Of a stretch of 64,000 bases of DNA, positions 7,205-62,702 are shown one piece after another. The notes under the pieces were generated by a model that was not told where the DNA came from, ran no database searches, and was given only the letters and a program-made list of their open reading frames with translations. Both the position numbers and the translations under genes were made by a program. Source of the stretch: Phytohabitans houttuyneae (GTDB taxonomy: Bacteria; Actinomycetota; Actinomycetes; Mycobacteriales; Micromonosporaceae); contig NZ_BLPF01000001.1 of assembly GCF_011764425.1 (NCBI RefSeq), positions 859,001 to 923,000 of the forward strand. The letters run 5' to 3'. Position 1 is the first letter of the stretch, and each line of letters starts with the position of its first letter.

Positions 7205-7262
7205 ACCGCGGAGGGTGAGGCCGCGGGAGCAACGGTCCGGACCACCACGGACATCGCGGTAG
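7205..7262 (-). repeat. Element A, copy 1
   Basis: About 58-bp dispersed element. Read on the minus strand it runs from CTACCGCGATGTCC through GGTCCGGACCGTTGCTCC to CCTCACCCTCCGCGGT. The ends form an ACCGCG/CGCGGT inverted repeat. The CTACCGC end faces the urtE stop 20 bp away. Confidence 0.8.
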
Positions 7263-7281
7263 CTCGCTGTCTTCTCTCGAG

Positions 7282-7974
7282 TTAGACGGCCAGCGCCTGC
7301 CGCACGTCGCGCTCCGCCTCCTGGCCGCCGGAGCCGGATGAGGTGACGCGGCCCGATTCCAGGACGTAGTAGCGTTCGGCGGCCCGCAGTGCGAAGCCGA
7401 CGTGCTGCTCCACCAGCAGCACTGACAGCCCGCCGCGGCGGGTGAGGGACAGGATCGTCTCCTGGATTTCGGCGACCACCGATGGCTGGATGCCCTCGGT
7501 CGGCTCGTCCAGGAGCAGGAGGCGGGGTGAGGTGATCAGCGCGCGGGCGATCGCCAGCTGCTGTCGCTGCCCGCCGGAGAGCAGGCCGGCGCGCCGGCTC
7601 ATCAGGCCGCGCAGGGCGGGGAAGAGGTCCAGCGCGTCGGCCATCGCCGCCTTGGCGTTGGGGCGGGAGTCGGCGATCAGCTGGAGGTTTTCGGCGGTGG
7701 TGAGGTGGGGGAAGCACTGCTGGCCCTGCGGCACGTAGGCCATCCCGCGCGCGACCCGCTCGTGCGGCGCGAGCCGGGTCACGTCCTCGCCGGCGAAGAG
7801 TACGCGCCCGGACCTCGGCTTGAGCAGCCCGATCGCCGCGCGCAGGAGCGTGCTCTTGCCGGCGCCGTTGTGGCCCATCACCGCCGCTACGCCGTCGTCG
7901 GGCACGGACAGCGAGACGCCGTGCAGGACCAGGCTGCGGCCGTAGCCGGCCTGGACGCCGTCGATCTCCAGCAT
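7282..7974 (-). CDS. urtE: Urea ABC transporter ATP-binding protein UrtE
   Basis: 230-residue LivF/UrtE-type ATPase, the second nucleotide-binding subunit of the five-gene urea importer. Motifs: Walker A GHNGAGKST, LSGGQRQQLAIARAL, Walker B LLLLDEPTEGIQPS, switch VEQHVG. The PTEGIQPSVV segment is characteristic of UrtE. ATG 7974 overlaps the urtD stop (TGATG), so translation is coupled. It is the last gene of urtABCDE, and element A lies 20 bp after its stop. Confidence 0.92.
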   Translation of the reverse strand: MLEIDGVQAGYGRSLVLHGVSLSVPDDGVAAVMGHNGAGKSTLLRAAIGLLKPRSGRVLFAGEDVTRLAPHERVARGMAYVPQGQQCFPHLTTAENLQLIADSRPNAKAAMADALDLFPALRGLMSRRAGLLSGGQRQQLAIARALITSPRLLLLDEPTEGIQPSVVAEIQETILSLTRRGGLSVLLVEQHVGFALRAAERYYVLESGRVTSSGSGGQEAERDVRQALAV

Positions 7975-8702
7975 CACGACACCCCCAGGTACACCTGCTG
8001 CACGGCCGGGTCGGCCTGGACCTGCGCGACGGTCCCCTCGCTGAGCACCTTGCCGGCGTGCAGCACCGTCACCGTGTTGGCGAAGCTGCGCATGAAGTCC
8101 ATGTCGTGCTCGATCACCACCACCGTGCGGTCGGCGCTCACCACCCGCAGCAGCTCGCCCGTGGCGTCGCGCTCGTCGTGGCTCATGCCGGCCACCGGCT
8201 CGTCGAGCAGCAGCAGCTTCACGTCCTGCACGAGCAGCATGCCGATCTCCAGCCACTGCTTCTGCCCGTGCGCGAGCGCTCCCGCGGGCTTGTCGCGCAG
8301 GTCGGCCAGGCCGATTGTCTCCAGCGCCGTCGAGACCGCTTCCGGCACCCCGCGCCGGCGGCGCGCGAGCGTCCAGAAGGAGCGGCCCGAGCCGGCCGCG
8401 ATGTCGAGGTTCTGCAGCACGCTCAGCTCCTCGAACACCGTCGCCGTCTGGAACGTGCGCCCCACGCCCATCCGCGCGATCCGGTGCACCGGCCGGCCCA
8501 GCAGCTCGGTGTCGCCGAAGCGGGCCGAGCCGGTGGCCTTCACGAGCCCGGTCACGGCGTCGACGAGGGTGGTCTTGCCCGCGCCGTTGGGGCCGATGAG
8601 AAACCTGATGTCGCCCGGCGCCACCTCGAGGCTGACGCCGTCCACGGCCACAAACCCGTCGAACACCACCCGCAGGTCGCGCACCGAAAGCCCGCCGCTC
8701 AT
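7974..8702 (-). CDS. urtD: Urea ABC transporter ATP-binding protein UrtD
   Basis: 242-residue LivG/UrtD-type ATPase. Motifs: Walker A GPNGAGKTT, signature region LAHGQKQWLEIGMLL (the LSGGQ equivalent is AHGQK, the usual form in UrtD), Walker B KLLLLDEPVAGMS, and VVIEHDMDFMR as the H-loop. The start MSGGLSVRDLRVVFDGF matches the family and overlaps the urtC stop by four bases. It pairs with UrtE at the cytoplasmic face of the UrtB/UrtC channel. Confidence 0.92.
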   Translation of the reverse strand: MSGGLSVRDLRVVFDGFVAVDGVSLEVAPGDIRFLIGPNGAGKTTLVDAVTGLVKATGSARFGDTELLGRPVHRIARMGVGRTFQTATVFEELSVLQNLDIAAGSGRSFWTLARRRRGVPEAVSTALETIGLADLRDKPAGALAHGQKQWLEIGMLLVQDVKLLLLDEPVAGMSHDERDATGELLRVVSADRTVVVIEHDMDFMRSFANTVTVLHAGKVLSEGTVAQVQADPAVQQVYLGVS

Positions 8703-9792
8703 GCCGTCACCTGCTGTGGTGTGACCGTGGGCGCGGGCGAGACCGGAGCGGGATCGGGTGGCGGCCTTCGTCGCCGCCGGACCAGGCGCGCGACAGACGC
8801 CAGGCCGCCCGGCAGGAACGCCACGACCAGCACGAACAGCAGCCCTTGCAGGTACGTCCACGCGGCCGGGAACTCCTCGGACAGTGTGGTCTTCGCCCAG
8901 GCCACCGCGACCGCGCCGAGCACCGGCCCGAGCAGCGAGGCGCGACCGCCGACCGCGACGCCGATCACGAACTCGATCGACGGCACGATCCCGATCAGGG
9001 CGGGGTTGATGATGCCCACGGCCGGTACGAACAGCGCGCCGGCGAGGCCGGCCATGCCGGCGGCGGTCACGTACGCGACGAGCTTGACGTTGGCCGGGTT
9101 GTACCCGAGGAAGCGCACCCGCTCCTCGCTGTCCCGCACCGCCACGAGCAGCTCCCGTAGCGGGACCGCATCAGCTGCCGCGCGATGGCCAGCAGCAGGA
9201 GCAGCACGCCGGCGACGATGAAGTACACCATCCGCTGGTTGACCGGGTCGTCCAGGTCGTACCCGAAGAAGCCCTGGAAGTCGGTGAGCCCGTTCGTGCC
9301 GCCCGTCGTGCCCTGCTGTCCGATGAGGAGGATCGCCATCGCGGCGGCGAGGGCCTGGCTGAGGATCGCGAAGTACGCGCCGCGCACCCGCCGCCGGAAG
9401 ACCAGCGAACCGAGCAGGAACGCCACGAGCATCGGCAGCAGCACAGTGGCCGGCAGCGCGAAGGCCGGGTTGGCGAACGGCCGCCACCACCACGGCAGGG
9501 AGTCGAGCTGCCCGTACAGCTGCATGAAGTCGGGCATCTGACCGGGACCGGCGTCCGCGAGCTTCATGTGCATGGCCATCGCGTAGCCGCCGAGCCCGAA
9601 GAACACGCCCTGGCCGAGCGTGAGCAGCCCGCCCCTCCCCCAGGCCAGCCCGATGCCGACGGCGACCATCGCCAGGCACAGGTACTTGGCGAGCAGGCTG
9701 AGCCGGAAGTCGGAGAGCGCGAAGGGTGCGACGGCGAAAAGGAGAACCGCGCCGAAGGCGAAGCCGGCGCCGGCGCGCCAGGAAAATCTCAT
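8699..9792 (-). CDS. urtC: Urea ABC transporter permease UrtC (one frameshift)
   Basis: LivM-type permease of about 364 residues with many membrane segments. The N-terminal half (MRFSWRAGAGFAFG to RQLMRSRYG) and the C-terminal half (LLVAVRDSEERVRFLGYNPA to the end) lie in different frames. They join if one C is added to the plus-strand run 9154-9156, giving SRYGELLVAVRDSEER, the conserved cytoplasmic loop of LivM/UrtC proteins. Start ATG 9792 overlaps urtB by four bases; the stop overlaps urtD. The break is probably a sequencing error, since all four partner genes are intact. Confidence 0.88.
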
Positions 9793-10676
9793 GCCAAGCT
9801 CCGCGTACGCAACGTGAACAGCCCCTGCGGCCGCCACTGGAGGAAGGCCACGATCGCCACGAAGACACCGACCTTCGCGACGCTGACCGTGGTGGAGTAC
9901 TCGACGAGCGACTGGAGCGTGCCGAGCGCGAACGCCACGATCACGCTGCCCTTGAGGTGCCCGATGCCGCCGGCCACCACGACGAGGAACGCGTCGATGA
10001 TGACGTTGGTGCCCATCGTCGGCCCGATCGGTCCGAGCAGGGTGAGCGCGACACCGGCCACCCCGGCCAGCCCCGAGCCGATGAGGAAGGTGAGCCGGTC
10101 GACCCGCCCGGTCGGTATGCCCGAGACGGCGGCCAGGTCGCGGTTTTGCACCACCGCCCGGATCCGCCGGCCGAGCGAGCTGAAGCGCAGCACCAGCGTG
10201 AGCGCCACGACGGCCAGCAGCGCGAGCGTCAGGATGAAGAGGCGGTTGTTGCTGAGTACCAGATCGTCTGTGATCTTGATGTTTCCGGTGAGGAAGTCGG
10301 GCGCCCGCGTCTGCACGTTGGGCGCGCCGAAGATGTCCCGCGCGAGCTGCTGGAGGATCAGCGACACACCCCACGTGACGAGGAGGGTGTCCAGGGGCCG
10401 CGCGTAGAGCCGCCGGATGAGCAGGAACTCCAGCAGCACCCCCATCAGCCCGGCCACGGCGAACGCGAGCGGCAGCGCCACGAGCAGCGACAGGCCGGCG
10501 TCGGTGATCACGTTCTGGAGGACGTACACGGTGTAGGCGCCGGCCATGATGAACTCGCCGTGCGCCATGTTGATGACGCCCATCTGGCCGAACGTGAGCG
10601 ACAGGCCGAGGGCGATGAGCAGCAGTACCGCGCCGATGCTGACGCCGGTGAAGAGCTGGCTGACGATGACGGTCAT
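9789..10676 (-). CDS. urtB: Urea ABC transporter permease UrtB
   Basis: 295-residue LivH-type permease with about eight membrane segments. Family features include LTFGQMGVINMAHGEFIMAG near the N-terminus, the internal RRIRAVVQNRDLAAVSGI loop and a C-terminal GGIGHLKGSVIVAF segment. Length matches UrtB once the signal-like extension seen in some proteobacteria is absent. It forms the urea channel with UrtC. There is a 49-bp gap to urtA, and it overlaps urtC. Confidence 0.92.
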   Translation of the reverse strand: MTVIVSQLFTGVSIGAVLLLIALGLSLTFGQMGVINMAHGEFIMAGAYTVYVLQNVITDAGLSLLVALPLAFAVAGLMGVLLEFLLIRRLYARPLDTLLVTWGVSLILQQLARDIFGAPNVQTRAPDFLTGNIKITDDLVLSNNRLFILTLALLAVVALTLVLRFSSLGRRIRAVVQNRDLAAVSGIPTGRVDRLTFLIGSGLAGVAGVALTLLGPIGPTMGTNVIIDAFLVVVAGGIGHLKGSVIVAFALGTLQSLVEYSTTVSVAKVGVFVAIVAFLQWRPQGLFTLRTRSLA

Positions 10677-10725
10677 GGCGGACCTCCGCGGTGGGGGGTG
10701 CCCGCCCGAAGGCGGGCACCCGACG

Positions 10726-11967: not shown

Positions 11968-12071
11968 CGAAACCTCCGCACCAGGGGATTCGGCGCCACG
12001 ACAGCGGGGGCCGGAATGCAGGTCAGCGTCTGCGAGTTTCGTTGCGGAGGCATTTCCCGGCCCTTAAGAGC

Positions 12072-12086
12072 CTGTTTCCGAAACAG
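12072..12086. promoter_or_regulatory. Palindrome upstream of urtA
   Basis: CTGTTTC-C-GAAACAG, a perfect 7-bp inverted repeat with a single central base, 105 bp upstream of the urtA ATG. The GTTTC/GAAAC half-sites loosely recall actinomycete GlnR boxes but do not match the full spacing. It is an operator candidate only. Confidence 0.45.
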
Positions 12087-13340: not shown

Positions 13341-13877
13341 ATGCCGAGTCTCCCGCAGATGCCGGTGACATCCGCGCCGCGGAACGCGGCGACGATGACG
13401 GTCGAGGCCGGCGAGCGCCCGTTCGGGCAGGTGGAGTCGCCGCAGCGGCAGGCTCATGCGCCCGAAGACATCGTGCTCCTGGTGACCCGCGCCGAGCGGC
13501 TGCTGTCCCGGCGCCTGCGCGAGGTGCTCGACACGCACGGGCGCACGCCCGACGAGTGGCGGGTGCTGTCGATCCTCGCCGACGGCGCGGGACACCCGAT
13601 GACCGAGGTGGCGGAGCACGCGTTCCTCCCGCCGGGCTCGCTGACCAAGCTCGTCGACCACCTCGTCGACGAGGGCCTTGTCTACCGCCGCGTCGACCCG
13701 ATGGACCGCCGCCGCATCCGCGCCTACCTGACCGCCCGCGGCCGCACGACCCACGGCCGCGTCACCGGCGACATCCGCGCCGTCTGGAGCGAGCTGCCGA
13801 TGGCGGGCCCGGAGAGCGCGCTCCTCGGCGACCTCCTGCGCGGGCTTGTCGCGGCGCTGGACCGCCCGCCTCGCTAG
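13341..13877 (+). CDS. MarR-family transcriptional regulator
   Basis: Up to 178 residues with a winged-helix core: TRAERLLSRRLREVLDTHGR, EWRVLSILADGAGHPM, recognition helix FLPPGSLTKLVDHLVDEGLV and wing VDPMDRRRIRAYLTARGR, the DxRxxR pattern of MarR proteins. The first 50 residues are poorly conserved and have no ribosome site; an internal ATG about 13395 may be the true start. It is divergent from the AmiC-like gene across a 67-bp gap, which suggests joint regulation of that gene or of urt. The ligand is unknown. Confidence 0.85.
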   Translation: MPSLPQMPVTSAPRNAATMTVEAGERPFGQVESPQRQAHAPEDIVLLVTRAERLLSRRLREVLDTHGRTPDEWRVLSILADGAGHPMTEVAEHAFLPPGSLTKLVDHLVDEGLVYRRVDPMDRRRIRAYLTARGRTTHGRVTGDIRAVWSELPMAGPESALLGDLLRGLVAALDRPPR

Positions 13878-13988
13878 AGACCTTTCACGGTTGAGGTGCG
13901 CATCCGTCCACAGTGCAGCACCGCCCGACGCGGCCCGGTGCGGGCGGCGCTCACCGTCGAGATCTCGACGGTCATCCCAGGAGATGTG

Positions 13989-14047
13989 GGCTACCGCGAC
14001 GACCGACGTGGTCCAGACCGTTGCTCCCGCGGCCTCACCCTCCGCAG
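13989..14047 (+). repeat. Element A, copy 2
   Basis: Starts GGGCTACCGCGACGACC and ends GCGGCCTCACCCTCCGC. Plus orientation, 112 bp after the MarR stop. The central palindrome is GGTCCAGACC. Confidence 0.8.
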
Positions 14048-14396
14048 TCGCCCAGCTCACCCCCACAAGCGTGCTCCCGCAGACCCACGGGAGTTAGTGC
14101 TGTAACAGCGCACCAACCCACCCCTAGATCGCGACCCTCACAACGCCTGCCCTTGATCGATGGTCACGGACCGCCAGCACAGTGCTGCCTCACTCACGGG
14201 TTCGCCCTCACGGGCGCCCCCCTTTCTGCCCACCGACGGACCGGCTACCCACGGACCAAGGACCGGCATGGCCGGCCCGGGGTCCCAGGTCCGCGACGAA
14301 CCCCGCAGGGCCAGGCCCGCACGGCCCCGCCCTCTGGACCCCAGCCCGCGGCAGCGCGTAGCTAACGGCGCTGGTCCATCGGCGCGCCGCTGGTTC

Positions 14397-14418
14397 CTGG
14401 GCGCATTCGTGCGCCCAG
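14397..14418. repeat. Element B hairpin, copy 2
   Basis: CTGGGCGCA, loop TTCG, TGCGCCCAG: perfect 9-bp stem with a UUCG-type loop when transcribed, followed by CTTCAGAGC. Confidence 0.75.
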
Positions 14419-14489
14419 CTTCAGAGCCGCCGGCGGCAACCCCATGGGACCGGTCTGCCGGAGCTGGCTCTTCGGGGTGACCGCAACCG

Positions 14490-14549
14490 AACGCGGAGGA
14501 TGAGGCCGCGGGAGCAACGGTCCAGACCACCACGGACATCGCGGTAGCC
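14490..14549 (-). repeat. Element A, copy 3
   Basis: Minus-orientation copy of element A. The CTACCGCGATGTCC end faces the hisS stop, 108 bp away. It forms an inverted pair with copy 2. Confidence 0.8.
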
Positions 14550-14656
14550 CGGAACTATCTCAATGTGAATCTGACGTTCGCACTCACCCTGACCGCGAAA
14601 GGTGTCCAGCGTTCACCGCAGTAGGCGCCGCCGGTGCGTGTGCCGGCCGCCTTTGA

Positions 14657-15994
14657 TCAGCCCCCGGCGGCCGTGACCGCGGGTCGGAGGTCTTCCGCGG
14701 GTGGGCTCCACGTGGCGGGGTCGGCCTCGACCTGGTCGCCGGAGCGGATGTCCTTGACCGTGTCGGCCTCGCCCTCCGCGCCCGGAAACCACACGAACGG
14801 GATGCCGCGCCGCTCGGCGAAGCGGATCTGCTTGCCGTACTTCGCCGCGGTCGGCGCCACCTCGGTGGCGATCCCCCGCCCGCGCAGGGCCGCCGCGACG
14901 CGGTCGCAGCCGGCGCGCCGCTCCTCGGACGGGAGCGCGACGAGCACGGCCGTCGGCACCGAGCGGCTCACGGTGAGCGCGCCCGCACCGAAGAGCAGGC
15001 CCAGGATGCGGGTGATGCCGAGGGAGATGCCGACGCCCGGGTAGCGGTCGGCGCCGGCGCTGGCCAGGTTGTCGTACCGGCCGCCGGCCAGCACCGAGCC
15101 GAACCGCTCGAAGCCCCGCAGCGTGCCCTCGTAGACGGTGCCGGTGTAGTAGTCGAGGCCGCGGGCGATCTTCATGTCGGCGACGCACAGGCCGGGCGAG
15201 TGCGCGGCGGCGACCTCCATCACCCGCACCAGCTCGTCGATGCCCTCGTCGAGGAGGGGGTCGGTGACGCCCAGCGCGCGGATCTGGTCGGCGAACGACG
15301 CGTCCGGCGACGAGATCTCCGCCAGCCGGAGGCACGCCTTGGCCTGCGCGTCGCTCGCGCCCGCGGTCTCCGCCAGCAGCTCGGTCACCTTGCCCGGACC
15401 GATCTTGGCGAGCTTGTCGATGGCGCGGAGGGCGGCCTGCGGGTCGTCCAGGCCGATGCCCCGGTAGAAGCCCTCGGACACCTTGCGGTTGTTGACGTGG
15501 ATCAGGACCGGCGGGAGCGGCAGGCCGCCGAGCGCGTCGCCGAGCACGAGCGGCATCTCCGCCTCGTACTGGAACGGCAGCTCGTCACGGTCGACCACGT
15601 CGATGTCCGCCTGCAGGAACTCCCGGTACCGCCCCTCCTGCGGCCGCTCGCCCCGCCACACCTTCTGTATCTGGTAGCGCCGGAAGGGGAAGTGGAGCTT
15701 GCCCGCGTTTTCCAGGACGAAGCGGGCGAACGGGACGGTCAGGTCGAAGTGCAGCCCCAGCGTGTCCTCGTCCGTCTCACCTTCGGCGGCCTGGAGGCGG
15801 CGCAGCAGGTACACCTCCTTGGAGGTCTCCCCCTTGCGCAGCAGCTGGTCGAGCGGCTCGACGGCGCGCGTCTCCAGCGGGGCGAAGCCGTACAGCTCGA
15901 AGGTGCGGCGGATGTGGTCGATCATGCGCTGCTCGATCATCCGCTGCGGCGGGAGCCACTCGGGAAAGCCGGAGATCGACTTGGGCCGGCTCAT
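14657..15994 (-). CDS. hisS: Histidyl-tRNA synthetase
   Basis: 445-residue class II aminoacyl-tRNA synthetase that charges tRNA-His. It shows class II motif 2 (FRRYQIQKVWRGERPQEGRY), the HisA signature ARGLDYYTGTVYE, motif 3 (GVGISLGITRI) and a C-terminal anticodon-binding domain ending before residue 445. Start ATG 15994 begins MSRPKSISGFPEWLP, which matches actinobacterial HisRS starts. It follows the metallo-hydrolase gene by 55 bp on the same strand, the order also found in mycobacteria. Confidence 0.95.
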   Translation of the reverse strand: MSRPKSISGFPEWLPPQRMIEQRMIDHIRRTFELYGFAPLETRAVEPLDQLLRKGETSKEVYLLRRLQAAEGETDEDTLGLHFDLTVPFARFVLENAGKLHFPFRRYQIQKVWRGERPQEGRYREFLQADIDVVDRDELPFQYEAEMPLVLGDALGGLPLPPVLIHVNNRKVSEGFYRGIGLDDPQAALRAIDKLAKIGPGKVTELLAETAGASDAQAKACLRLAEISSPDASFADQIRALGVTDPLLDEGIDELVRVMEVAAAHSPGLCVADMKIARGLDYYTGTVYEGTLRGFERFGSVLAGGRYDNLASAGADRYPGVGISLGITRILGLLFGAGALTVSRSVPTAVLVALPSEERRAGCDRVAAALRGRGIATEVAPTAAKYGKQIRFAERRGIPFVWFPGAEGEADTVKDIRSGDQVEADPATWSPPAEDLRPAVTAAGG

Positions 15995-16049
15995 GCCCGT
16001 CCCCGCTCTCCGCGCGCGCTGACCTCGATGATTCGCTCGCTTCGCTCAC

Positions 16050-16733
16050 TCATGAAACGGTTCCAGCCTCGGCGACTTGTAGAAGGTACGGGTTGGTGGC
16101 GCGCTCGCGCCCGATCGTGGTGGCCGGCCCGTGGCCGGGCAGCACGACGGTCTCGTCGGCGAGCGGCAGGATCTTGTCACGCAGGCTGGCGATCATCGCG
16201 TCCATGCTGCCGCCGGGCAGGTCGACGCGGCCGACCGAACCGGCGAAGAGCACGTCTCCGGAGAGGCAGACCTCGACGGCGTCCGGCCCGGGCACCCGGA
16301 AGATCGCGGAGCCGCGGGTGTGGCCCGGCGCGTGGTCGACCGTGAACTCCAGCCCCGCGAGGCTGACCACTCCGCCGTCGGTGAGCTCGGCGACGTCGTC
16401 CGGCTCGCTCCACTCCAGCCCGCCCAGCAGCTGGCGCGGGTCGATCGAGTTGATCGCCTTGCTGGGGTCTTTGAGCAGCTCACGGTCGTCCGGATGGATG
16501 TACGCCGGGACGCCCCGCGCCCCGCACACCGGGGTCACGGAGAAGGTGTGGTCGAGGTGCCCGTGGGTCAGCAACACAGCCACCGGGTGCAGGCGATGCT
16601 CCTCGATCAGCGCGTCGAGCCGGTCGATAACGCCGATACCGGGATCGACCACCACACACTGCTCGCCCGGCCCTGTTGCGACCACGTAACAGTTGGTGCC
16701 GAACACGTCCGACGGGAACCCCTTCACCAACAT
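16050..16733 (-). CDS. Metallo-beta-lactamase-fold hydrolase (glyoxalase II-like)
   Basis: 227-residue hydrolase with the binuclear zinc motif THGHLDHTFS (HxHxDH), then APGHTRGS, LSGDVLFAGSVGR and LPGHGPAT, the four metal-binding blocks of glyoxalase II-like enzymes. ATG 16733 (MLVKGFPSDVFGTNCYVV) gives the family's usual start; the frame extends to 16793 without a better ribosome site. It precedes hisS, as does Rv2581c in M. tuberculosis. It probably hydrolyses a thioester, possibly S-lactoyl-mycothiol-like; the substrate is not proven. Confidence 0.87.
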   Translation of the reverse strand: MLVKGFPSDVFGTNCYVVATGPGEQCVVVDPGIGVIDRLDALIEEHRLHPVAVLLTHGHLDHTFSVTPVCGARGVPAYIHPDDRELLKDPSKAINSIDPRQLLGGLEWSEPDDVAELTDGGVVSLAGLEFTVDHAPGHTRGSAIFRVPGPDAVEVCLSGDVLFAGSVGRVDLPGGSMDAMIASLRDKILPLADETVVLPGHGPATTIGRERATNPYLLQVAEAGTVS

Positions 16734-17881: not shown

Positions 17882-18703
17882 GTGACGTCCACAAGGGAGC
17901 GGCAGCGCGCCGCGGCGCGGGCCAAACTCGAAAGGGAGATGGCAGAGCGCGCCGCAGCGGCCAGAAAGCGCCGCCAGTGGCAGGTGAGCCTCGGCGCGGG
18001 TGTGGCGGTGATCGTGCTCGCGGTCGGCGTGGTGCTGCTGGTCAACCTCGCCGGCGACGACGATTCCACAAACACCGCGGCCGACCCGTCGGCCGGCCCG
18101 GTGAGCTGCGTGTGGAACGAGGTGCCCAAGGAAGAGCGCACCCCGACCACCAAGGACGTGGGCGTGCCGCCGACCACCACCCCGGCCAACACCGGCAACA
18201 AGACCATGACCGTCGACACCAACTTCGGCAAGGTCAACATCAACATGGACCTGTCGAAGTCCCCGTGCGCGGCCGAGAGCTTCTCGTTCCTGGCGGGTAA
18301 GAAGTTCTTCGACGGCACCAAGTGCCACCGGATGTTCCCCGGCATGCTCCAGTGCGGCGACCCGAGCGCCAAGGGCAAGGGCTACCGCGAGAGCGACGGC
18401 ACCGGCGGCCCGTCCTACCGGTACGCCAACGAGTACCTGCCGGCCAACGAGCGCCCCGCCTACCCCGCGGGCGTGGTCGCCCTGGCCAACAGCGGCCCGG
18501 ACTCCAACGGCAGCCAGTTCTTCTTCATCTACCAGGACGTCGAGCTGCAGCCCGACTACACCATCATCGGCAAGGTCGACGCGGCCAGCCTCGAGGTCAT
18601 CAAGAAGGCCACCGAGAAGGGCCACGACGGCGCGTTCGACCCCTCGCCGGGCGGCGGCCACCCCAAAAACGACATCAACATCAACGCGGTGACCGTCTCT
18701 TAG
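17882..18703 (+). CDS. Membrane-anchored cyclophilin-type PPIase 2
   Basis: 273-residue peptidyl-prolyl cis-trans isomerase, type II membrane protein. GTG 17882 follows an AGGAGGAA site. The N-terminus is basic (TRERQRAAARAKLEREMAER), then one membrane segment (VAVIVLAVGVVLLVNLAG) and the cyclophilin domain. TKCHRMFPGMLQCGDP retains the catalytic His-Arg missing in the upstream paralogue, and NGSQFFFIYQD is the second core motif. It corresponds in position to ppiB (Rv2582) of M. tuberculosis. A strong intrinsic terminator follows 13 bp after the stop. Confidence 0.9.
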   Translation: MTSTRERQRAAARAKLEREMAERAAAARKRRQWQVSLGAGVAVIVLAVGVVLLVNLAGDDDSTNTAADPSAGPVSCVWNEVPKEERTPTTKDVGVPPTTTPANTGNKTMTVDTNFGKVNINMDLSKSPCAAESFSFLAGKKFFDGTKCHRMFPGMLQCGDPSAKGKGYRESDGTGGPSYRYANEYLPANERPAYPAGVVALANSGPDSNGSQFFFIYQDVELQPDYTIIGKVDAASLEVIKKATEKGHDGAFDPSPGGGHPKNDININAVTVS

Positions 18704-18715: not shown

Positions 18716-18752
18716 GGGGCCAGGTCGCGGTTTGACCTGGCCCCGATTTTTT
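18716..18752 (+). terminator. Intrinsic terminator after PPIase 2
   Basis: GGGGCCAGGTC, loop GCGGTTT, GACCTGGCCCC: perfect 11-bp stem followed by GATTTTTT. A textbook rho-independent terminator for the cyclophilin pair. Confidence 0.92.
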
Positions 18753-18753
18753 G

Positions 18754-18814
18754 AGCTACCGCGACGTCCGCCGTGGTCCAGACCGTTGCTCCCGCGGCCT
18801 CACCCTCCGCGGTG
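18754..18814 (+). repeat. Element A, copy 4
   Basis: Starts GAGCTACCGCGACGTCC immediately after the terminator's T run and ends ACCCTCCGCGGT. The ACCGCG/CGCGGT ends are intact. Plus orientation, downstream of a plus-strand gene. Confidence 0.85.
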
Positions 18815-18838
18815 GTCCATCTCCCCCGCGACCCCCGC

Positions 18839-18980: not shown

Positions 18981-19047
18981 GCGAGCCGCCGACCTCCGCG
19001 GTGCCCGCGGGAGCGAACGGTCCGCAGCTGACGCGGACGCGGGCAAA
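18981..19047 (+). repeat. Element C, copy 1
   Basis: About 67 bp: GAGCCGCCGACC, then CGGTGCCCGCGGGAGC and GGTCCGCAGCTGACGCGGAC. Similar copies lie at 62749-62815 (same orientation) and 47370-47436 (opposite). Confidence 0.7.
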
Positions 19048-19055
19048 TAGATCCC

Positions 19056-21545
19056 CTACGCCCCTGAGGTGACCCGGTAGGCGTCGAAGACGCCGTCGAC
19101 CTTGCGCACGGCGGCCAGCAGGTGGCCGAGGTGCTTGGGGTCGGCCATCTCGAACGAGAAGCGGCTCACCGCCACCCTGTCGCGGGTCGTGGTGACCGTC
19201 GCGGACAGGATGTTGACGCGCTCGTCGGACAGTACGCGGGTGACGTCGGCGAGCAGCTTGTGCCGGTCCAAGGCCTCGACCTGGATCGCGACCAGGAACG
19301 TGGAGGCCGACGTCGGCTTCCAGGTCACCTCGACGATGCGGTCGGTCTGTGCCTGGAGGTCCTCGGCGTTGGCGCAGTCGTCGCGGTGGACGCTGATGCC
19401 GCCCGAGCGGGTGACGAAGCCGAACACCGCGTCGCCCGGCACCGGCGTGCAGCAGCGCGCGAGCTTGATCCAGACGTCGCTCACGCCGCGGACCACCACG
19501 CCCGGGTCCTGTGCGGCCTGGCGTGCCCTCGGCGGGCGGGTGGCGACGGCGGTCTCGGCGATGTCCTCGACCGCGCCCTCCTCGCCGCCGTAGCCGGCGA
19601 CCAGGCGCTGCACCACCGACTGCGCGGACACCTGCGACTCGCCGACGGCCGCGTAGAGCGAGGCGACGTCGGCCAGGTGCAGGTCGCGGGCGATCGCCAT
19701 CAGCGCTTCGGTGGTGAGCATCCGCGTCAGCGGGAGGCCCTGCCGGCGCATCGCCTTGACGATCGACTCCTTGCCGGCCTCGATCGCCTCCTCGCGGCGC
19801 TCCTTGTTGAAGTACTGCCGGATCTTCGTGCGCGCGCGGGGGCTCTTGACGAAGCCCAGCCAGTCCTGCGAAGGTCCGGCCGTCTCGGACTTGGACGTGA
19901 AGATCTCGATCACGTCGCCGTTGGACAGCGTCGACTCCAGCGGCACCAGCTTGCCGTTGACCCGCGCGCCGATGCACTTGTGGCCGACCTCGGTGTGCAC
20001 CGCGTACGCGAAGTCGACCGGCGTCGAGCCCGTCGGCAGCGGTATCACGTCGCCCTTGGGCGTGAAGACGTAGACCTCCTGGCTGGAGAGGTCGAACCGC
20101 AGCGCGTCCAGGAACTCGCTCGGGTCGCTCGCCTCCCGCTGCCAGTCCAGCAGCTGCCGCAGCCACGTCATCTCGTCGATGTGCGCCGGCGGCCCGACGA
20201 TCGTGGCGCCCTTCTGCTCCTTGTACTTCCAGTGCGCGGCGATGCCGAACTCCGCCGTGCGGTGCATGCCCAGCGTGCGGATCTGCATCTCCACCGGCTT
20301 GCCGGTGGGGCCGATCACGGTGGTGTGCAGCGACTGGTACATGTTGAACTTCGGCATCGCGATGTAGTCCTTGAAGCGCCCCGGCACCGGCTGCCAGTTG
20401 GCGTGGATGACTCCCAACGCCGCGTAGCAGTCGCGCACCGTGTCGACAAGGATCCGCACGCCGATCAGGTCGTAGATGTCGTTGAAGTCGCGACCCCGCA
20501 CGATCATCTTCTGGTAGATCGAGTACAGGTGCTTGGGCCGGCCGGTCGTCTCGGCCTTGATCTTCGCGGCCTTGAGATCCGTCTGGACCTTCTGCGTGAC
20601 CTGGCGCAGCAGCGTGTCACGCTGCGGCTGGTGCTCGCCGATCAGCCGGTTGATCTCCTCGAACCGCTTGGGGAACAGCGTGCCGAACGCGAGGTCCTCG
20701 AGCTCCCACTTGATCGTGTTCATACCCAGGCGGTGGGCCAGCGGGGCGAGGATCTCCAGCGTCTCCTTGGCCTTCTGCTCCTGCTTGGGACGCGGGAGGA
20801 AGGTCAGCGTGCGCATGTTGTGCAGGCGGTCGGCGAGCTTGATGACCAGCACCCGCGGGTCCTTGGCCATCGCGACGACCATCTTGCGGATCGTCTCGGC
20901 CTTGGCCGCGTCGCCGAGCTTGACCTTGTCGAGCTTGGTCACGCCGTCGACGAGCAGCGCCACCTCGCCGCCGAAGTCGGTGCGCATCTGGTCGAGGTTG
21001 TAGTCGGTGTCCTCGATCGTGTCGTGCAGCAGCGCGGCCACCAGCGTCGTGGTGTCCATGCCGAGGTTGGCCAGGATGGTCGCCACCGCGAGCGGATGCG
21101 TGATGTACGGGTCGCCGGACTTGCGGTACTGCCCCGAATGCCACTCGGCGGCCACGTCGAAGGCGCGCTGCAGCAGCCGCGCGTCCGCCTTGGGGTGGCA
21201 CGCGCGGTGAGTGGCGATCAGTGGCTCCAGCACCTCGCTCACCTGCGGTGTCTGCCAGGGCGCGTTGAAGCGGGCCAGCCGCGCGCGCACCCGGCGCCCG
21301 GTCGGCGCACCGGCCCAACCCGATGGGCTCGCCTGGTCGGCTGACTCGTCATCGTGGACGTGGTCGTCATGGTTGGCGGCCTCGACCTGCGGAAAGGGCA
21401 CGACCACGGCGGCGCTGTCCGCACGGCCTTCGACGGCCTCGACGGGTGCGCTGCCAGCAGCGGTCGCCGTCTCCTCAGGCGCGGTCCGCGCCTCGCCAGT
21501 CGGATGCACGCTGCCCTCCACTGAATGGGCGACGTCCTGAGACAC
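19056..21545 (-). CDS. relA: Bifunctional (p)ppGpp synthetase/hydrolase Rel
   Basis: 829-residue long RSH enzyme controlling the stringent response: makes (p)ppGpp from ATP and GDP/GTP and hydrolyses it. Domains in order: disordered acidic N-terminus (about 85 residues); HD hydrolase with [12 protein letters not shown] and [11 protein letters not shown]; synthetase with [17 protein letters not shown] and [21 protein letters not shown] ([19 protein letters not shown]); zinc-finger-like [15 protein letters not shown]-terminal ACT. GTG 21545 with GGAGG just upstream is preferred over ATG 21575. The intact HDxxED suggests both activities. It is downstream of apt, as in mycobacteria. Confidence 0.95.
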
Positions 21546-47216: not shown

Positions 47217-47223
47217 CGCGCAC

Positions 47224-47261
47224 GCCCTGGACCTCGCGCTTGCCGCGGCGAGGTCCAGGGC
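47224..47261. terminator. 14-bp inverted repeat after methyltransferase
   Basis: GCCCTGGACCTCGC and exact complement GCGAGGTCCAGGGC around a 10-base loop, 7 bp after the stop. Strong stem without a T run. Confidence 0.7.
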
Positions 47262-47379
47262 CTCCTACGCGCCGGTCCGTCCAGGGCTTCATACGCCCCG
47301 GGTCAGTCCAGGGCCTTTACGTCCCGGTCCCTCCAGGACCTTTACCCCCGGTCCGTCCAGGGCCTTTATGCCCCGGTCC
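47252..47379. repeat. Tandem array, ~25-27 bp unit
   Basis: TCCAGGGC or close variants start at 47254, 47280, 47307, 47332 and 47356. The unit is approximately GTCCAGGGCCTTTAYGCCCC plus GGTCC. The first unit shares its sequence with the right arm of the preceding inverted repeat, suggesting the array grew from it. Confidence 0.8.
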
Positions 47380-47436
47380 GCGCCAGTGACGGACCGCTCG
47401 CTCCCGCGGGCACCGCTCCGGTCGGCGGCTCGCAGG
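47370..47436 (-). repeat. Element C, copy 2
   Basis: Reverse copy: on the minus strand GAGCCGCCGACCGGAGCGG, CGGTGCCCGCGGGAGC, GGTCCGTCACTGGCGCGGAC, matching copies at 18981 and 62749. Confidence 0.7.
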
Positions 47437-47759
47437 GCTCGCCGAGTGCCCCGACCTCCGCTGCCAGGCCCGCGGGTCAAGCCCACCCCGCCGCGGCCGC
47501 CCCCTTGCGGAACCCGCTCCGCACCGCCCTCATTCGGGCGCGTTCGCACCTAATCCCCTGATCTGGCTGCACTGGTGAATCGCTCGCTCCCCAGGCCGCC
47601 GGGACACATCCGACCAGCACGCCGAGCCGACCGCACCGGGCCGCTCGAACAGCGCCCGGCAGGAGCGACGGCATCGTCTCCGGCCAAGCCGGGCTGACCG
47701 AAGCCAGTCGCGCCCCGCCCGATCGCCGGTCCCCCGGCCGCCTCCGTCGTCGTCCGGAA

Positions 47760-47781
47760 CTGGGCGCACCCATGCGCCCAG
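47760..47781. repeat. Element B hairpin, copy 3
   Basis: CTGGGCGCA, loop CCCA, TGCGCCCAG, followed by CCCGAGAGG. Part of the 190-bp unit. Confidence 0.75.
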
Positions 47782-47950
47782 CCCGAGAGGACGTCCAGCC
47801 GCACCCACAGAACCCGCTCCACGAGGCCCTCGTCCCGGGGCGTTCGCCTCCGCCCCTGTTCTGGCTGCAATAACGGACCGCTCGCTCCCGCCTGGCCGCC
47901 GAGACACATCCAACCCGCACCCCGAGCCGACCGCACCATCGTCCGAAACC

Positions 47951-47968
47951 GGGCGCACCAGTGCGCCC
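47951..47968. repeat. Element B hairpin, copy 4
   Basis: GGGCGCA, loop CCAG, TGCGCCC, followed by AGCCCGAGAGG. The outer base pair of the stem is lost here (CGGG against CCCA). Confidence 0.7.
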
Positions 47969-48139
47969 AGCCCGAGAGGACGCCAAGCCGCACCCGCGGA
48001 ACCCGCTCCACGCCGCCGCCTCGTCCCCGGGAGCGTTCGCACTTGCCCTGGTCCGGCCACGCAGACGGACCGCTCACTCCCACCAGCCGCCGGGACACAT
48101 CCGACCGGCGCCCCAAGCCGACCGCACCGTCGTCCCAAG

Positions 48140-48161
48140 CTGGGCGCACCAATGCGCCCAG
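48140..48161. repeat. Element B hairpin, copy 5
   Basis: CTGGGCGCA, loop CCAA, TGCGCCCAG, followed by CCCGAGAGG. Confidence 0.75.
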
Positions 48162-48264
48162 CCCGAGAGGACGTCCAGCCGCACCCGCGGATCCGCTCGG
48201 CGCCGGCCCTGGCAGCACCCACAACGCCGCCCCGCCCCAGCCCGGTCCGGGCTACCTGTTCCCC

Positions 48265-48323
48265 AGCGGAGGGTGAGGCCGCGGGAGCAACGGTCCGGAC
48301 CACGACGGACGCCGCGGTAGCCC
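48265..48323 (-). repeat. Element A, copy 5
   Basis: Minus orientation: GGGCTACCGCGGCGTCC to GCGGCCTCACCCTCCGC, with central GGTCCGGACC. The CTACCGC end faces the glycosidase stop. Confidence 0.8.
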
Positions 48324-48437
48324 AAATCCGCAAAGACCACCACGGAGGGCGAGGCCCGGAAGACACGCTCCGTTCCGCGGCAACCCCGCGCAGGTCCGGC
48401 CGCGACAGACGCCGCTGTAGGCCAAACCGGTCTCCCC

Positions 48438-48490
48438 CGCGCAGGGTGAGGCCGCGAGAGCAAAAGTCCGGACCGCGACCGACGCCGCGG
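48438..48490 (-). repeat. Element A, copy 6 (diverged)
   Basis: Minus orientation. The GGTCCGGAC-like centre and GCGGCCTCACCCT block are recognisable but carry several substitutions. It ends directly at the glycosidase stop codon. Confidence 0.65.
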
Positions 48491-48491
48491 G

Positions 48492-49847
48492 TTAGGGGGT
48501 CGCGGCCATCAGGTCGAGGGCGAGGGCCGCGGTCCAGCTGAAGGCGGCCGCGCCGATGCCGTGGCCGGTGACCGGGTCGAAGTACTCGTGGCAGCCGCCG
48601 CGGCGGATGACGCCGAGCATCGCGGCGCGCAGGGCGGCGGCCTCGTGCTCGTGGCCGTGGGCGCGCAGGCCCTGCCAGAGCAGCCAGTTGACGTTGATCC
48701 AGACCGGGCCGCGCCAGTAGCGGAGGCGGTCGAAGTCGGGGGCCGTGCGGTCGTACGACGGCAGCGGGAGCTCGCCGCCCAGGCCGAACGCCTCCGAGCG
48801 GGCCACCTCCAGCAGCGACGATCGGTGCGCCTCGGGCAGGCCGGGCAGCACCAGCGGGATCAGGCCGCTCACGCAGCGTGCGGTGCTCAGCTGGCCGGTG
48901 CGCACGTCGCGCGCGTGGAACATGCCGGTCGACGGGTTGAACAGGCGGTCAACCAGCACCTTCGTGATGTGCTCTGCCCGGTCACGGTGGGGCGCGGCGT
49001 CGGCGCCGATCACCTCGGCGATGCCGGCCAGGGCAAGCTCGGCCAGCGCGAGCAGCGCGTTGAAGGACGGGCACTCCACCAGGAACGGGTGGCGCTCCAG
49101 CAGCCCCTCGTCCAGGTAGCCGCCGTCGCGGTAGGCGGCGGCGATCGCGATGTACCGCGCGTAGTCGGTGTCCGTCGGCCGGTGCGAGTGGACGGACACC
49201 TGCGTGTCCTGGCGGCGGTGGCTGCGCAGCAGCGAGAGGTCCACGGGGACGGCGGCGAGCGCGTTGTCCCAGGCCGGGCTGTTGTCCAGACCGGACTCCC
49301 AGGGGTGCACGATGCTGGCGAGCCCGTCGCCGGCGACGTCGCGGCCCTCGAAGAGGTACGTCTGCTGCTTGACCAGCCGCGGGTACAGCCACTCCAGCTC
49401 GTGCCGCGCGGCGTCGCGGTCGAGGCAGCGCAGGTAGACGTCGCGGGCGGCGACCGCGTGTACCGGCGGCTGCACGATTCCCGTGGTCAGACCGCCGAGG
49501 CGGCCCGGTGACGCCGGCGCGTCCCAGAAGGCGGGACCCGGGAAGTAGTCGCGCTCGGACACGTCCGGGTCGAACACGATGTGCGGGACACGCCCGTCGT
49601 ACCACTGCGCGGCGAACAGGCTGCGCAGGTCGCGCCAGGCCCGCTCCGGCCGGTGGTGCGCGAGTCCGACCGCGATGAAGGCGGCGTCCCAGCTCCACTG
49701 ATGCGGGTACAGGGCGCGCGATGGCACCGTGTGGTCCCGTTCCCAGTTGGCGTCCAGGACCTCGACGGCCTGGCGCCGGAGCTCTTCCTCGCTCATGACA
49801 GCGCCGGCCTCAGGGGCCGGCGCGAGGGGCGTATCCGTGGCGCTCAC
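48492..49847 (-). CDS. GH63-type glycosidase (glucosyl/mannosylglycerate hydrolase-like)
   Basis: 451-residue (alpha/alpha)6-barrel glycosidase without signal peptide, so cytosolic. Conserved blocks: SRALYPHQWSWDAAFIAVGL, SIVHPWESGLDNSPAWD and RYWRGPVWINVNWLLWQGL. The HPWESGLDNSP block matches mannosylglycerate and glucosylglycerate hydrolases, where the Asp is thought to be the acid catalyst. Glucosylglycerate is a nitrogen-stress and osmotic solute in actinobacteria, a plausible but unproven substrate. ATG 49796 (MSEEELRRQAVEVLD) may be the true start rather than 49847. Confidence 0.8.
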   Translation of the reverse strand: MSATDTPLAPAPEAGAVMSEEELRRQAVEVLDANWERDHTVPSRALYPHQWSWDAAFIAVGLAHHRPERAWRDLRSLFAAQWYDGRVPHIVFDPDVSERDYFPGPAFWDAPASPGRLGGLTTGIVQPPVHAVAARDVYLRCLDRDAARHELEWLYPRLVKQQTYLFEGRDVAGDGLASIVHPWESGLDNSPAWDNALAAVPVDLSLLRSHRRQDTQVSVHSHRPTDTDYARYIAIAAAYRDGGYLDEGLLERHPFLVECPSFNALLALAELALAGIAEVIGADAAPHRDRAEHITKVLVDRLFNPSTGMFHARDVRTGQLSTARCVSGLIPLVLPGLPEAHRSSLLEVARSEAFGLGGELPLPSYDRTAPDFDRLRYWRGPVWINVNWLLWQGLRAHGHEHEAAALRAAMLGVIRRGGCHEYFDPVTGHGIGAAAFSWTAALALDLMAATP

Positions 49848-52689: not shown

Positions 52690-52760
52690 AGCTCCCTCCG
52701 CCGGCACCGGGAACGCACCCCAAGGAAACGCTCAGCTGCGCTCCACGTTTCCCGGGGGCC

Positions 52761-52803
52761 CCGCGCAGGGGTCCGGACCACGACGGGCGTCGCGGTAGCT
52801 CGC
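52761..52803 (-). repeat. Element A, copy 7 (internally deleted)
   Basis: Minus orientation: GAGCTACCGCGACGCCC then GTGGTCCGGACC, missing the middle GTTGCTCCCGCGGC block. The CTACCGC end faces the adenosine deaminase-like stop. Confidence 0.65.
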
Positions 52804-52815
52804 ATCCAAAGGTCG

Positions 52816-52837
52816 CTGGGCGCATTGGTGCGCCCAG
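52816..52837. repeat. Element B hairpin, copy 6
   Basis: CTGGGCGCA, loop TTGG, TGCGCCCAG, followed by CTTGGGAGC. It lies between element A and the stop of the next gene. Confidence 0.75.
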
Positions 52838-52888
52838 CTTGGGAGCAACGTGCGCGCGGCAGGTCGACCCGGCGCGGAGGGCGACGCG

Positions 52889-58751: not shown

Positions 58752-58813
58752 GTCCCAATCCCCTCGAATCAGGCGAACGAACAACCTTGCCCGATCAAAC
58801 AGGGACCAACCGC

Positions 58814-59140: not shown

Positions 59141-59180
59141 GCCGCCCAGCCTACGTGGTCGCGGCGATCCCGGCCTGGCG

Positions 59181-59944: not shown

Positions 59945-60022
59945 GCAAGGACGATAGCGCCACTACGCGTGTCCGTGGGGGCACCCTCCGCTGTGGACAG
60001 TGATCCACTGGAGCGCCTTCCC

Positions 60023-61501: not shown

Positions 61502-61583
61502 GTGGCCCCCGTACTCCATAGTGGACAGTCCCCACCGGTCCGGCGGGTAGATGCCATGGTCACACCGGATCCGGGAAATAGTC

Positions 61584-61599
61584 AATAAACCTTTCTATT
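61584..61599. promoter_or_regulatory. AT-rich imperfect palindrome upstream of GH3 gene
   Basis: AATAAACCTTTCTATT, an imperfect palindrome in an unusually AT-rich stretch between the GH3 gene and the small gene at 61695. Possible operator or promoter; resemblance to aminosugar-responsive sites is weak. Confidence 0.35.
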
Positions 61600-61694
61600 A
61601 AGTCTCACTAGACGGGCAGGCCTTTGTGCCGGTATGCCCACGAACGGGTGTCACGGGGCGGCGACTTCTTGCCTCACCGTGAAAGAGTGCGGGG

Positions 61695-61844
61695 ATGGAC
61701 GCGTTGCTCTCGGCTGCCACCATCGCTGCCGAGGACCGGAGCTGGTTCGACATACCGGCCGTCCGCGTCGTCGGGTCGATCCTCGGCGCGCTCCTGCTGC
61801 TGGCCGCGATCCGGTCGATGTTCGGCAAAGGCAAGGGAAAGTAG
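61695..61844 (+). CDS. Small membrane protein, 49 residues
   Basis: Reads MDALLSAATIAAEDRSWFDI, then one hydrophobic span (VRVVGSILGALLLLAAIRSM) and a basic end FGKGKGK. GGGG lies directly before ATG 61695, with GAAAGAG further up. The composition (acidic outside, Lys-rich inside) fits a real single-span protein. No family recognised. Confidence 0.6.
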   Translation: MDALLSAATIAAEDRSWFDIPAVRVVGSILGALLLLAAIRSMFGKGKGK

Positions 61845-61930
61845 CGACGCGCTGTTCAGCAGGGGTGGACACTCCTGCCCGGTTAAGGAACCGCTGAGGA
61901 AGCCGCCGCCCATCTGTGACTGTTTCCGCA

Positions 61931-61962
61931 CGTACCGCAGGAGTAACGTGACGCGCGGTACG
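61931..61962. promoter_or_regulatory. Inverted repeat upstream of Cys-rich MarR gene
   Basis: CGTACCGC (61931-61938) and GCGGTACG (61955-61962), exact complements around 16 bases, 50 bp before GTG 62012. Candidate autoregulatory operator. Confidence 0.45.
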
Positions 61963-62011
61963 AACGGTGTACCCCTCCCCCCGAATCGTTACCAACCAGG
62001 GATAAATACGC

Positions 62012-62626
62012 GTGGACCTGGAAACCTCTACCCGCCAGCTAGCCACGGGCCTGACCCGCGTGGCGGTGGCCGTGCAGGCCGCCGAGAGCCCGCTCCAGCT
62101 GGAGCGCACGATCGCGCAGCAGCAGGTGCTGCTCCTGCTCAGCCGCCGCAGCGAGGTCTACCCGCTGTCCGAGCTCTCGGCCGACCTCAACATGACCACC
62201 CACGCGACGATGTCGGCGATAGCGACGCTGGCCCGCGAGGGCCTGGTGTCGGTAGACCCCTCCCCGTCGTACGCACCACACGCCGTCCGCATCGCCCTGA
62301 CCGACGCCGGCCGCGCCCAGTCGCCCGAGCTGCTCAACTGGGCCGCCGACCTGCTCGCCGAGCTGCACAATCTGGACCACGAGGGCCAGCACCAGCTGCT
62401 CGGCGTGGTGGCCAGCCAGATCCGCCGCATGCAGCGCGAGGGCCGCATCCCGGTCACGAAGATGTGCGTGAGCTGCCGCTTCTTCGACGGCTACGCCCAC
62501 CCCGGCACCGACGAGCCACACCACTGCTGGCTGATCGACAAGCCGTTCGGCCACCAGTACCTGCGCCTCCGCTGCCCCGAAGGCCAGCCCGGCGAAGGCC
62601 CCGTCCGCCCCGACGAGGCGGCCTAG
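62012..62626 (+). CDS. MarR-type regulator with Cys/His-rich C-terminal extension
   Basis: 204 residues. Winged-helix core: QQVLLLLSRRSEVYPLSELS, recognition helix NMTTHATMSAIATLAREGLV, wing VRIALTDAGRAQ. After residue about 150 an extension carries MCVSCRFFDG, DEPHHCWLID and YLRLRCPEG: four Cys plus His in a pattern that could bind a metal or form a redox switch. GTG 62012 lies about seven bases after a GATAAAT -10-like box with no ribosome site, suggesting a leaderless mRNA. Target genes unknown. Confidence 0.82.
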   Translation: MDLETSTRQLATGLTRVAVAVQAAESPLQLERTIAQQQVLLLLSRRSEVYPLSELSADLNMTTHATMSAIATLAREGLVSVDPSPSYAPHAVRIALTDAGRAQSPELLNWAADLLAELHNLDHEGQHQLLGVVASQIRRMQREGRIPVTKMCVSCRFFDGYAHPGTDEPHHCWLIDKPFGHQYLRLRCPEGQPGEGPVRPDEAA

Positions 62627-62642
62627 CGGTCACCCTCTTTTG

Positions 62643-62702
62643 AGCTACCGCGACGTCCGCGGTGGTCCGGACCGTTGCTCCCGCGGCCTCACCCTCCGCG
62701 GT
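62643..62702 (+). repeat. Element A, copy 8
   Basis: GAGCTACCGCGACGTCC to CCTCACCCTCCGCGGT, 16 bp after the MarR stop. ACCGCG/CGCGGT ends and central GGTCCGGACC intact. Confidence 0.85.

Follow-up and report, generated by a model that had tools for sequence, protein, structure and literature searches.

A dispersed 60-bp repeat at gene ends of Phytohabitans houttuyneae is probably an internal module of mobile blocks that target CTAG

The REP (repetitive extragenic palindrome), BIME (bacterial interspersed mosaic element) and REPIN families, which are associated with RAYT (REP-associated tyrosine) transposases, are short intergenic repeats that exist in many copies, form inverted pairs and lie mostly between convergent genes. 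Among insertion sequences (ISs), members of the IS630 family reportedly prefer the TA within CTAG. ISY100, of the IS630/Tc1 family, is described as inserting at TA (PMC2170065). Non-autonomous miniature inverted-repeat transposable elements (MITEs) include the 100-nt MITEPsy1 of Pseudomonas syringae, which is tied to ISPsy2, is described as inserting after CTAG or YTAA with duplication of that sequence on insertion, and has six genome copies, two of which interrupt genes (PMC3189936). MITECca01 of Cardinium, as described, is an IS982-derived, gene-free and mostly intergenic element of ~240 bp, whose flanking inverted repeats closely match those of an IS of the IS982 family (PMC9769881). Here we compare with these systems element A, a repeat of ~60 bp in a 64,000-nt stretch of the Phytohabitans houttuyneae genome (contig NZ_BLPF01000001.1, positions 859,001 to 923,000; hereafter the window). 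We consider it likely that A is a module that recurs inside mobile blocks, next to their ends, and that these blocks are non-autonomous, MITE-like and target CTAG.

A preliminary description of the window, made from its letters alone, had named eight places that carry element A; all eight were recovered by nhmmer (six full-length, one degenerate and one 5' half), as were the inverted ends and the central GGTCCGGACC reported for the repeat, whose central bases are GG in 42 and AG in 18 of 60 full-length copies. The statement that no described family matches A also stands, as there was no Rfam match (window at the gathering cut-off; five loci at E<=1) and no description of A among the papers listed on actinobacterial REP/RAYT systems, MITEs, IS982, ISs at stop codons or Phytohabitans repeats, as far as titles and the beginnings of abstracts tell. 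The window's own genome (G000; 11.34 Mb in five contigs, 71% GC) matches a 25-base core of A 320 times with at most 3 mismatches, and the reversed pattern not once. In an 864-kb sample of 40 evenly spread 20-kb tiles plus the window, nhmmer gave 46 hidden Markov model (HMM) matches, some of them halves of one copy, and none in the reversed-sequence control. Convergent gaps account for 34 of these matches and tandem gaps for 7; a single gap called divergent has 2, tile edges have 2, and 1 falls within a called gene, so the rarity inside genes that the repeat was expected to have holds. Genes were called with our own codon-usage script rather than a published tool, and it misses AT-rich genes. 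Genome labels used below are G002 for P. suffuscus, G003 for P. flavus, G023 for Asanoa siamensis and G029 for Virgisporangium aliadipatigenens.

Comparison of orthologous gaps shows that related genomes differ in where A is present. The relA region (up to 270 kb) was compared among five Phytohabitans genomes, the other four of which encode proteins with a median identity of 85-93% to those of G000. Among 1103 pairwise comparisons of orthologous gaps, which are non-independent since one gap may enter several times, A was found in neither member in 1053, in one in 44 and in both in 6; in 41 of the 44 one-sided cases the gap with A was the longer (median 736 versus 68.5 bp). Orthologous gaps are thus mostly free of A and about ten times shorter, which argues that A marks inserted DNA. 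For example, the gap after 62626 measures 279 bp in G000 and 46, 27 and 32 bp in G002, G003 and G004, while that after 47216 measures 1275 bp in G000 and 59, 45 and 389 bp in the same three genomes. At the gap after 18703, A is present in G000, G002 and G003 in differing arrangements. The inserted DNA exceeds A and holds other repeats, including, by eye, an A-like paralogue at its far end. The preliminary description had offered targeted insertion as one of two possibilities, and this possibility is supported by the orthologous gaps without A, by the YTAR enrichment at stop codons that face A and by IS-like terminal repeats starting with CTAG in a minority of copies.

The target was examined in a 1.06-Mb sample of G000 that was not picked for element A, except that it includes the window. 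Stop codons that face A are part of YTAR (C/T-TA-A/G) in 20/34 convergent and 5/5 tandem cases (25/39 in total), against 32/244 and 58/632 (90/876) in gaps without A; for stops that share a gap with A and do not face it, the values are 9/26 and 0/2. With all G000 loci, in which tiles are mixed with loci chosen for having element A, YTAR was found at 42 of 81 stops facing A versus 113 of 988 (Fisher p 6.5e-17; matches of at least 25 bits with a complete 5' end). The enrichment was repeated in the named loci, a set of 100 A copies at 80 loci mostly from P. suffuscus and P. maris (22/59 vs 62/489), and, at 13/21 vs 120/824, in tiles from the relA region of five sister genomes. The distance from A to YTAR is variable. 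In the 1.06 Mb, CTAG occurs 301 times where base composition predicts 2758, a ninefold depletion, and 71 of these sites lie at stop codons, 152 lie elsewhere in intergenic DNA and 78 lie in genes. Because CTAG is rare and concentrated at TAG stops and in intergenic DNA, an element that seeks it would tend to end up at gene ends. In the mechanism we propose, blocks would insert at YTAR, typically CTAG, and the scarcity of CTAG in a 71% GC genome, mostly at TAG stops and between genes, would make them pile up at gene 3' ends, with convergent gaps favoured above all as the places where insertion may be harmless. The position of A at 3' ends is best read as following from target choice and tolerance rather than from an RNA role.

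The arrangement of copies within gaps also suggests a unit larger than A. Wherever neighbours on opposite strands share a gap, a plus-strand copy precedes a minus-strand copy, with the 5' ends (GAGCTACC) on the outside; such outward pairs were seen in 18 gaps of G000 and 20 gaps of the named loci, and inward pairs in none (repeated gaps dropped, split halves merged, and gene-internal and edge copies outside the gap counts). In convergent gaps the 5' end of A is nearer its own gene in 57/61 cases (G000) and 46/57 cases (named loci). This outward pairing indicates the two ends of one unit rather than a motif of 3' untranslated regions. The preliminary description held that A always lies in the sense direction after gene 3' ends. 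This is not a rule, since tandem gaps hold 13 sense and 12 antisense copies in G000 and 15 and 14 in the named loci, counts drawn from 96 distinct copies at 101 loci and from the 100 named copies, again with tiles and A-selected loci mixed; the genome-wide orientation bias that a sense rule entails is therefore absent where it can be read. Of the eight window copies, the one at 62641 alone bears on orientation: the other seven occupy convergent gaps, in which a stop codon is faced whichever way A points. The outward-facing copies of a block could have been mistaken for repeats placed in sense after a stop. Small missed genes or tRNAs were considered as a cause of antisense tandem copies and rejected: no tRNA was found in 15 loci, and candidate open reading frames just upstream, some weak and some not, occur near part of these copies, such that a few antisense assignments may be mis-called.

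The same counts bear on the proposal that A, once inserted, is maintained by selection because it acts as an RNA element at 3' ends, in termination, processing or stability. The strong constraint on the sequence of A and the median distance of 33.5 nt between sense copies of G000 and their stop codons would fit such a role, as would the stretches that follow the core of A in 50 copies from Asanoa, which by eye look like different hairpins. Variable stem columns mostly stay paired through G-U in an RNAalifold variant that leaves pair 10-22 open, which is suggestive at most. Against this stand the antisense copies, as many as the sense ones in tandem gaps, and the folding of the consensus, which is no better than that of shuffled sequences (z -0.72). 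Column pair 10-22 is unpaired in 33 of the 60 aligned copies, and 15 pairs show no double compensatory change among them, a weak test given how little the copies vary. In addition, no conserved T run lies downstream, A is seldom shared at orthologous sites, and Rfam has no match. The reading as an RNA element of 3' untranslated regions is thus unsupported, and we regard it as improbable.

Several of the mobile blocks can be followed beyond A to terminal repeats that resemble those of ISs. Eight aligned A pairs of P. suffuscus, each of ~267 bp, show a unit that runs past A to CTAGACGATCTATTCC...GGAATAGATCGTCTAG, although some copies are without one end. Repeats of the CTAGACGATCTATTCC...GGAATAGATCGTCTAG type occur at 49 sites in P. 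suffuscus (control 0), with 8 pairs 372-385 bp apart and others at other spacings, and like ends bound a 1030-bp IS of this species that encloses a 304-aa transposase (NCBIfam IS982, 167.6 bits against a cut-off of 130). IS982-type relatives at 81-85% identity are present in G000 (two copies), P. flavus and G005, and none was found in G004 or G001. These relatives have the same ends, with CTAG on both sides in all but one (L343), and 2/7 of the IS982-type copies examined, both of them the intact 85% copies of G000, end exactly on a stop codon, which the flanking CTAG supplies.

A different repeat, the AGACC-type CTAGAGACCTTTCGCGGTCAGG, bounds units of 435, 495 and 202 bp in G000; it occurs at 30 sites in this genome (control 0), and all 4 sites in the tile sample adjoin A, while the IS982-type repeat gave 0 matches at 3 mismatches in that sample. 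Ends like CTAGAGACCTTTCGCGGTCAGG also bound an IS630-type element of 1173-1175 bp, found in several copies in G004 and in one complete copy in G000, where a second copy has one end only. The ends of the IS630-type element of G000 differ from the terminal repeats of the units by 2 and 4 mismatches in 22. Of the complete IS630-type units that were read, 3/8 have an end exactly at a called stop, namely the one in G000 and two in G004, which brings the IS units of both types that do so to 5/15 examined. CTAG flanks both sides of most ISs and units; since this motif is palindromic, a target duplication and a part of the repeat look alike. Among 123 repeat ends, 57 follow YTAR and 22 lie exactly at a called stop, counts to be read knowing that many of the loci were fetched with CTAG-bearing patterns. 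In G004, L454:1092-2155 and other copies of ~1174 bp have the IS630-type transposase in two overlapping frames, possibly a programmed-frameshift arrangement.

The best-preserved blocks, namely the P. suffuscus family and window positions 13874-14609, hold two inverted A copies with the 5' ends outward. The likely mover of blocks that end in CTAG-AGACCTTTCG... would be an IS630-family (Tc1/mariner-type) IS, and that of blocks that end in CTAG-ACGATCTATTCC... an IS982-family IS; we infer that the blocks were mobilised in trans by these transposases, and that the many A copies in which no terminal repeat can be recognised are relatives altered by decay or rearrangement.

A number of observations weigh against this reading. 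A clear terminal repeat within 70 nt (score >=11) was found for 3 (IS982 type) and 12 (AGACC type) of 94 G000 copies, and for 16 and 2 of 90 copies in the named loci, so that it is recognisable in ~16-20% of A copies overall. The mean match to the repeat exceeds that to its reverse significantly for the IS982 type in the named loci only (p 6.5e-5; the other values are 0.20 for the AGACC type there, and 0.66 and 0.09 for the IS982 and AGACC types in G000). Conversely, 77 of the 123 repeat ends (61 AGACC, 16 IS982) have no A within 130 nt, and neither the IS982-type nor the IS630-type IS contains A. The HMM finds one A each in the 435- and 495-bp units, for which a degenerate partner can be made out by eye, and none in the 202-bp unit. 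In one G004 copy of the IS630-type element, the two frames carry helix-turn-helix (HTH) and DDE_3 domains and match the two halves of the IS630 model at 91.6 and 87.7 bits, each below the cut-off of 100 for the whole protein. Across 30 pairs there was no consistent target duplication at the ends of A, and A as an exact terminus with target duplication was rejected for this reason.

The pattern of conservation weighs on the same side. The flanks of A are much less conserved than A itself, the reverse of what movement driven by terminal repeats predicts: 34/66 columns are without change in 60 full-length copies, and the flanks vary and are close to background. These copies come from an alignment of 61 full-length matches (38 from G000, 11 from G002, 10 from G003 and 1 each from G005 and G004), of which 60 were used; partial and degenerate copies fell outside it, which raises the apparent conservation. 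In favour of the block reading, A and the interior are alike in identity in 6 of the 8 aligned P. suffuscus blocks (0.94 and 0.92 in the two A copies, 0.90 in the interior), against 0.33-0.36 in the DNA outside; the terminal 20 nt, however, have mean identities of 0.69 and 0.71, below A, partly owing (by eye) to copies without an end. The invariant columns may mark A as a young repeat, a reading weakened by flanks that are much more diverged.

Such conservation could be explained if A is itself a REP-like mobile unit of 60 bp, copied alone by some other factor and set in inverted pairs near gene edges, with the terminal repeats as later captures. The near-invariance of A beside flanks near background is what this explanation expects, as are identical A copies with different flanks on both sides and the presence of A beside two types of terminal repeat, and beside neither in ~80% of copies. 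G000, however, has no Y1/RAYT transposase (0 matches to PF01797, a family found in 5/14 control genomes), so membership of A in a RAYT/REP family was rejected. In the sample, three longer motifs flanking A subfamilies were never found away from A (2/2, 1/1 and 3/3), which indicates that A travels with its flanks; a fourth motif of 15 nt is too short to tell (353 matches vs 209 in the reversed control). The association with YTAR at a variable distance also speaks against a self-copied 60-bp unit, and we regard this explanation as rather unlikely. A related possibility is that A is an independent passenger of ~60 bp, with a core of ~23-30 bp, which persists across several genera of the family by being lodged in MITEs with IS630 or IS982 ends, two unrelated types that share only the CTAG target; its invariance would then be kept by something other than the transposases, candidates being a host protein, gene conversion between copies and an insulating structure, and convergent gene ends would serve as a reservoir for exchange. 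This we hold to be a minority possibility, unlikely as matters stand, and we retain the reading of A as an internal module of CTAG-targeting blocks.

The spread of A across genera adds to what any explanation must cover. A search with a 20-base core found, among the matches listed, mainly Phytohabitans, plus Virgisporangium, Asanoa and one thermoplasmatal metagenome-assembled genome, the last of which looks like a chance match. The core GTGGTCCRGACCGTYGCTCCCGC (2 mismatches) occurs in 35/121 genomes and 14/44 genera sampled in the family, and the reversed control gave single matches in six genomes; several of the genera rest on one to three matches. The firm set comprises 16 genomes of five genera with at least 4 matches, with 4-424 matches per genome in six Phytohabitans, 13-39 in six genomes of the genus Asanoa and 5-8 in four others. 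Given this wide distribution and its conservation, the A module would appear to predate both terminal repeats and to be more widespread than either. In Asanoa, tandem gaps hold 9 sense and 15 antisense copies and convergent copies are nearer their own stop in 19/21 cases; the YTAR enrichment is weak there (12/30 vs 45/225 of all genes), a further point against CTAG-targeting blocks as the general vehicle of A. A plasmid or viral source was rejected, as a 61-nt query had no match in plasmids and the 20-nt core none in viral contigs.

A palindromic centre conserved across several genera could also be the operator of a DNA-binding protein, and the GGTCCGGACC centre resembles dre, the site of the GntR-type regulator DasR. 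The hundreds of copies, mostly in convergent gaps and not at promoters, make this explanation highly improbable.

Within the window, the most complete unit is the MITE-like block of ~736 bp at 13874-14609, which contains full-length A copies at 13987-14050 (plus strand, 62.6 bits by nhmmer) and 14489-14550 (minus strand, 59.7 bits) as the left and right members of an outward pair. Its left end reads CTAG followed by the terminal repeat AGACCTTTCACGG, with the TAG serving as the stop codon of gene 13341-13877, and its right end is CTGG plus ACACCTTTCGCGGTCAGG on the minus strand (contig positions 873588-873609). The called gap orthologous to this block measures -39 bp in both G002 and G003 and 206 bp in G004, where the gene 3' ends differ too. 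Another full-length copy, at 7205-7265 (minus strand, 68.3 bits), lies in the convergent gap 6576-7281, 16 nt off a CTAA stop.

At 18752-18815 (plus strand, 68.1 bits), a full-length A is preceded, by eye, by a terminator-like hairpin and T-run after the TTAG stop of gene 17882-18703. The block that begins with this copy probably has its other end at 18981-19070 (minus strand), an A-like paralogue termed B, which pairs with 47344-47433 as inverted repeat I2 and with 62751 as direct repeat D14 and whose likeness to A was judged by eye. A second B, at 47344-47444 (plus strand; inverted repeats I1 and I2), lies in the 1275-bp gap 47217-48491, which also holds a full-length A at 48264-48324 (minus strand, 60.4 bits) and a degenerate one at 48435-48490 (minus strand, 36.4 bits) that is 1 nt from gene 48492-49796 and abuts its CTAA stop. 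The sole window copy in a tandem gap, at 62641-62704 (plus strand, full-length, 69.0 bits), begins 14 nt past a CTAG stop, and a third B at 62738-62816 (minus strand; I1 and D14), missing from three orthologous gaps, probably bounds that block, starting at 62641, on its right side.

A long form of A lies at 52714-52801 (minus strand; lower bound approximate), made up of a 5' half at 52770-52801 (23.3 bits) and a palindromic insert of ~54 nt. By eye, the same insert is found at one fixed point inside A in L075 (twice), L086, L087 and L098, and long forms were placed at L075:3950-4200 and L098:6300-6530.

Other repeats share the gaps in which A lies. Three direct repeats of ~68 nt with a spacing of 93-94 nt occupy 6699-6953, in the gap beside the copy at 7205, and three units of ~110 nt with a spacing of 189-191 nt occupy 47591-48194, inside the 1275-bp gap. 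A second dispersed palindromic repeat (core ~CTGGGCGCATTGGTGCGCCCAGC) is found in A gaps at 6991-7030, 14389-14428, 48117-48162 and 52808-52860. In G004, the gaps orthologous to those after 18703 and 47216 (L241-L244) carry few A copies and a different palindromic repeat around CGTCGATCAAGG ... CCTTGATCGACG, and the gap orthologous to 47216 has a short tandem array too. The widest A pair of the tile sample, at L099, has outward-facing A-like copies 2.7 kb apart, between which lies an AT-rich frame of ~600 aa (14600-16450). A transposase inside this pair was considered and rejected, as the frame looks by eye like a P-loop ATPase, possibly a cargo gene; this gap was called divergent in error because the AT-rich gene there was missed.

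A CTAG-preferring transposase that meets its targets largely at TAG stops and in intergenic DNA could insert next to a gene and restore its stop codon. This would explain, at the level of bases and in a form open to test, why dispersed repeats accumulate at gene ends in GC-rich bacteria. Positioning at 3' ends could then arise without an RNA function, and this calls for caution in inferring terminators from conserved 3'-end repeats.

Compared with described systems, element A has intergenic inverted pairs in common with REP, BIME and REPIN families, although G000 is without their Y1/RAYT transposase. The P. suffuscus blocks are alike in build to MITECca01, whose host is unrelated and for which the part of its description at hand mentions no A-like module and no stop codons (PMC9769881). 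The blocks and MITEPsy1, so far as its description goes, share the same class of target (PMC3189936). Those units that have terminal repeats resemble MITEs of the IS630/Tc1-mariner type in being short, gene-free and intergenic, with repeats like those of an IS630-type IS in the same genome, CTAG ends and insertion polymorphism; the difference is that A is not in the IS, is better conserved than the terminal repeats and lies in blocks whose repeats are recognisable in a minority of copies. We read element A as a new family of a known kind, and its odd feature is an over-conserved module that crosses genera: a sequence conserved above the repeats that should move it, and shared so widely, poses a question for the biochemistry of transposition.

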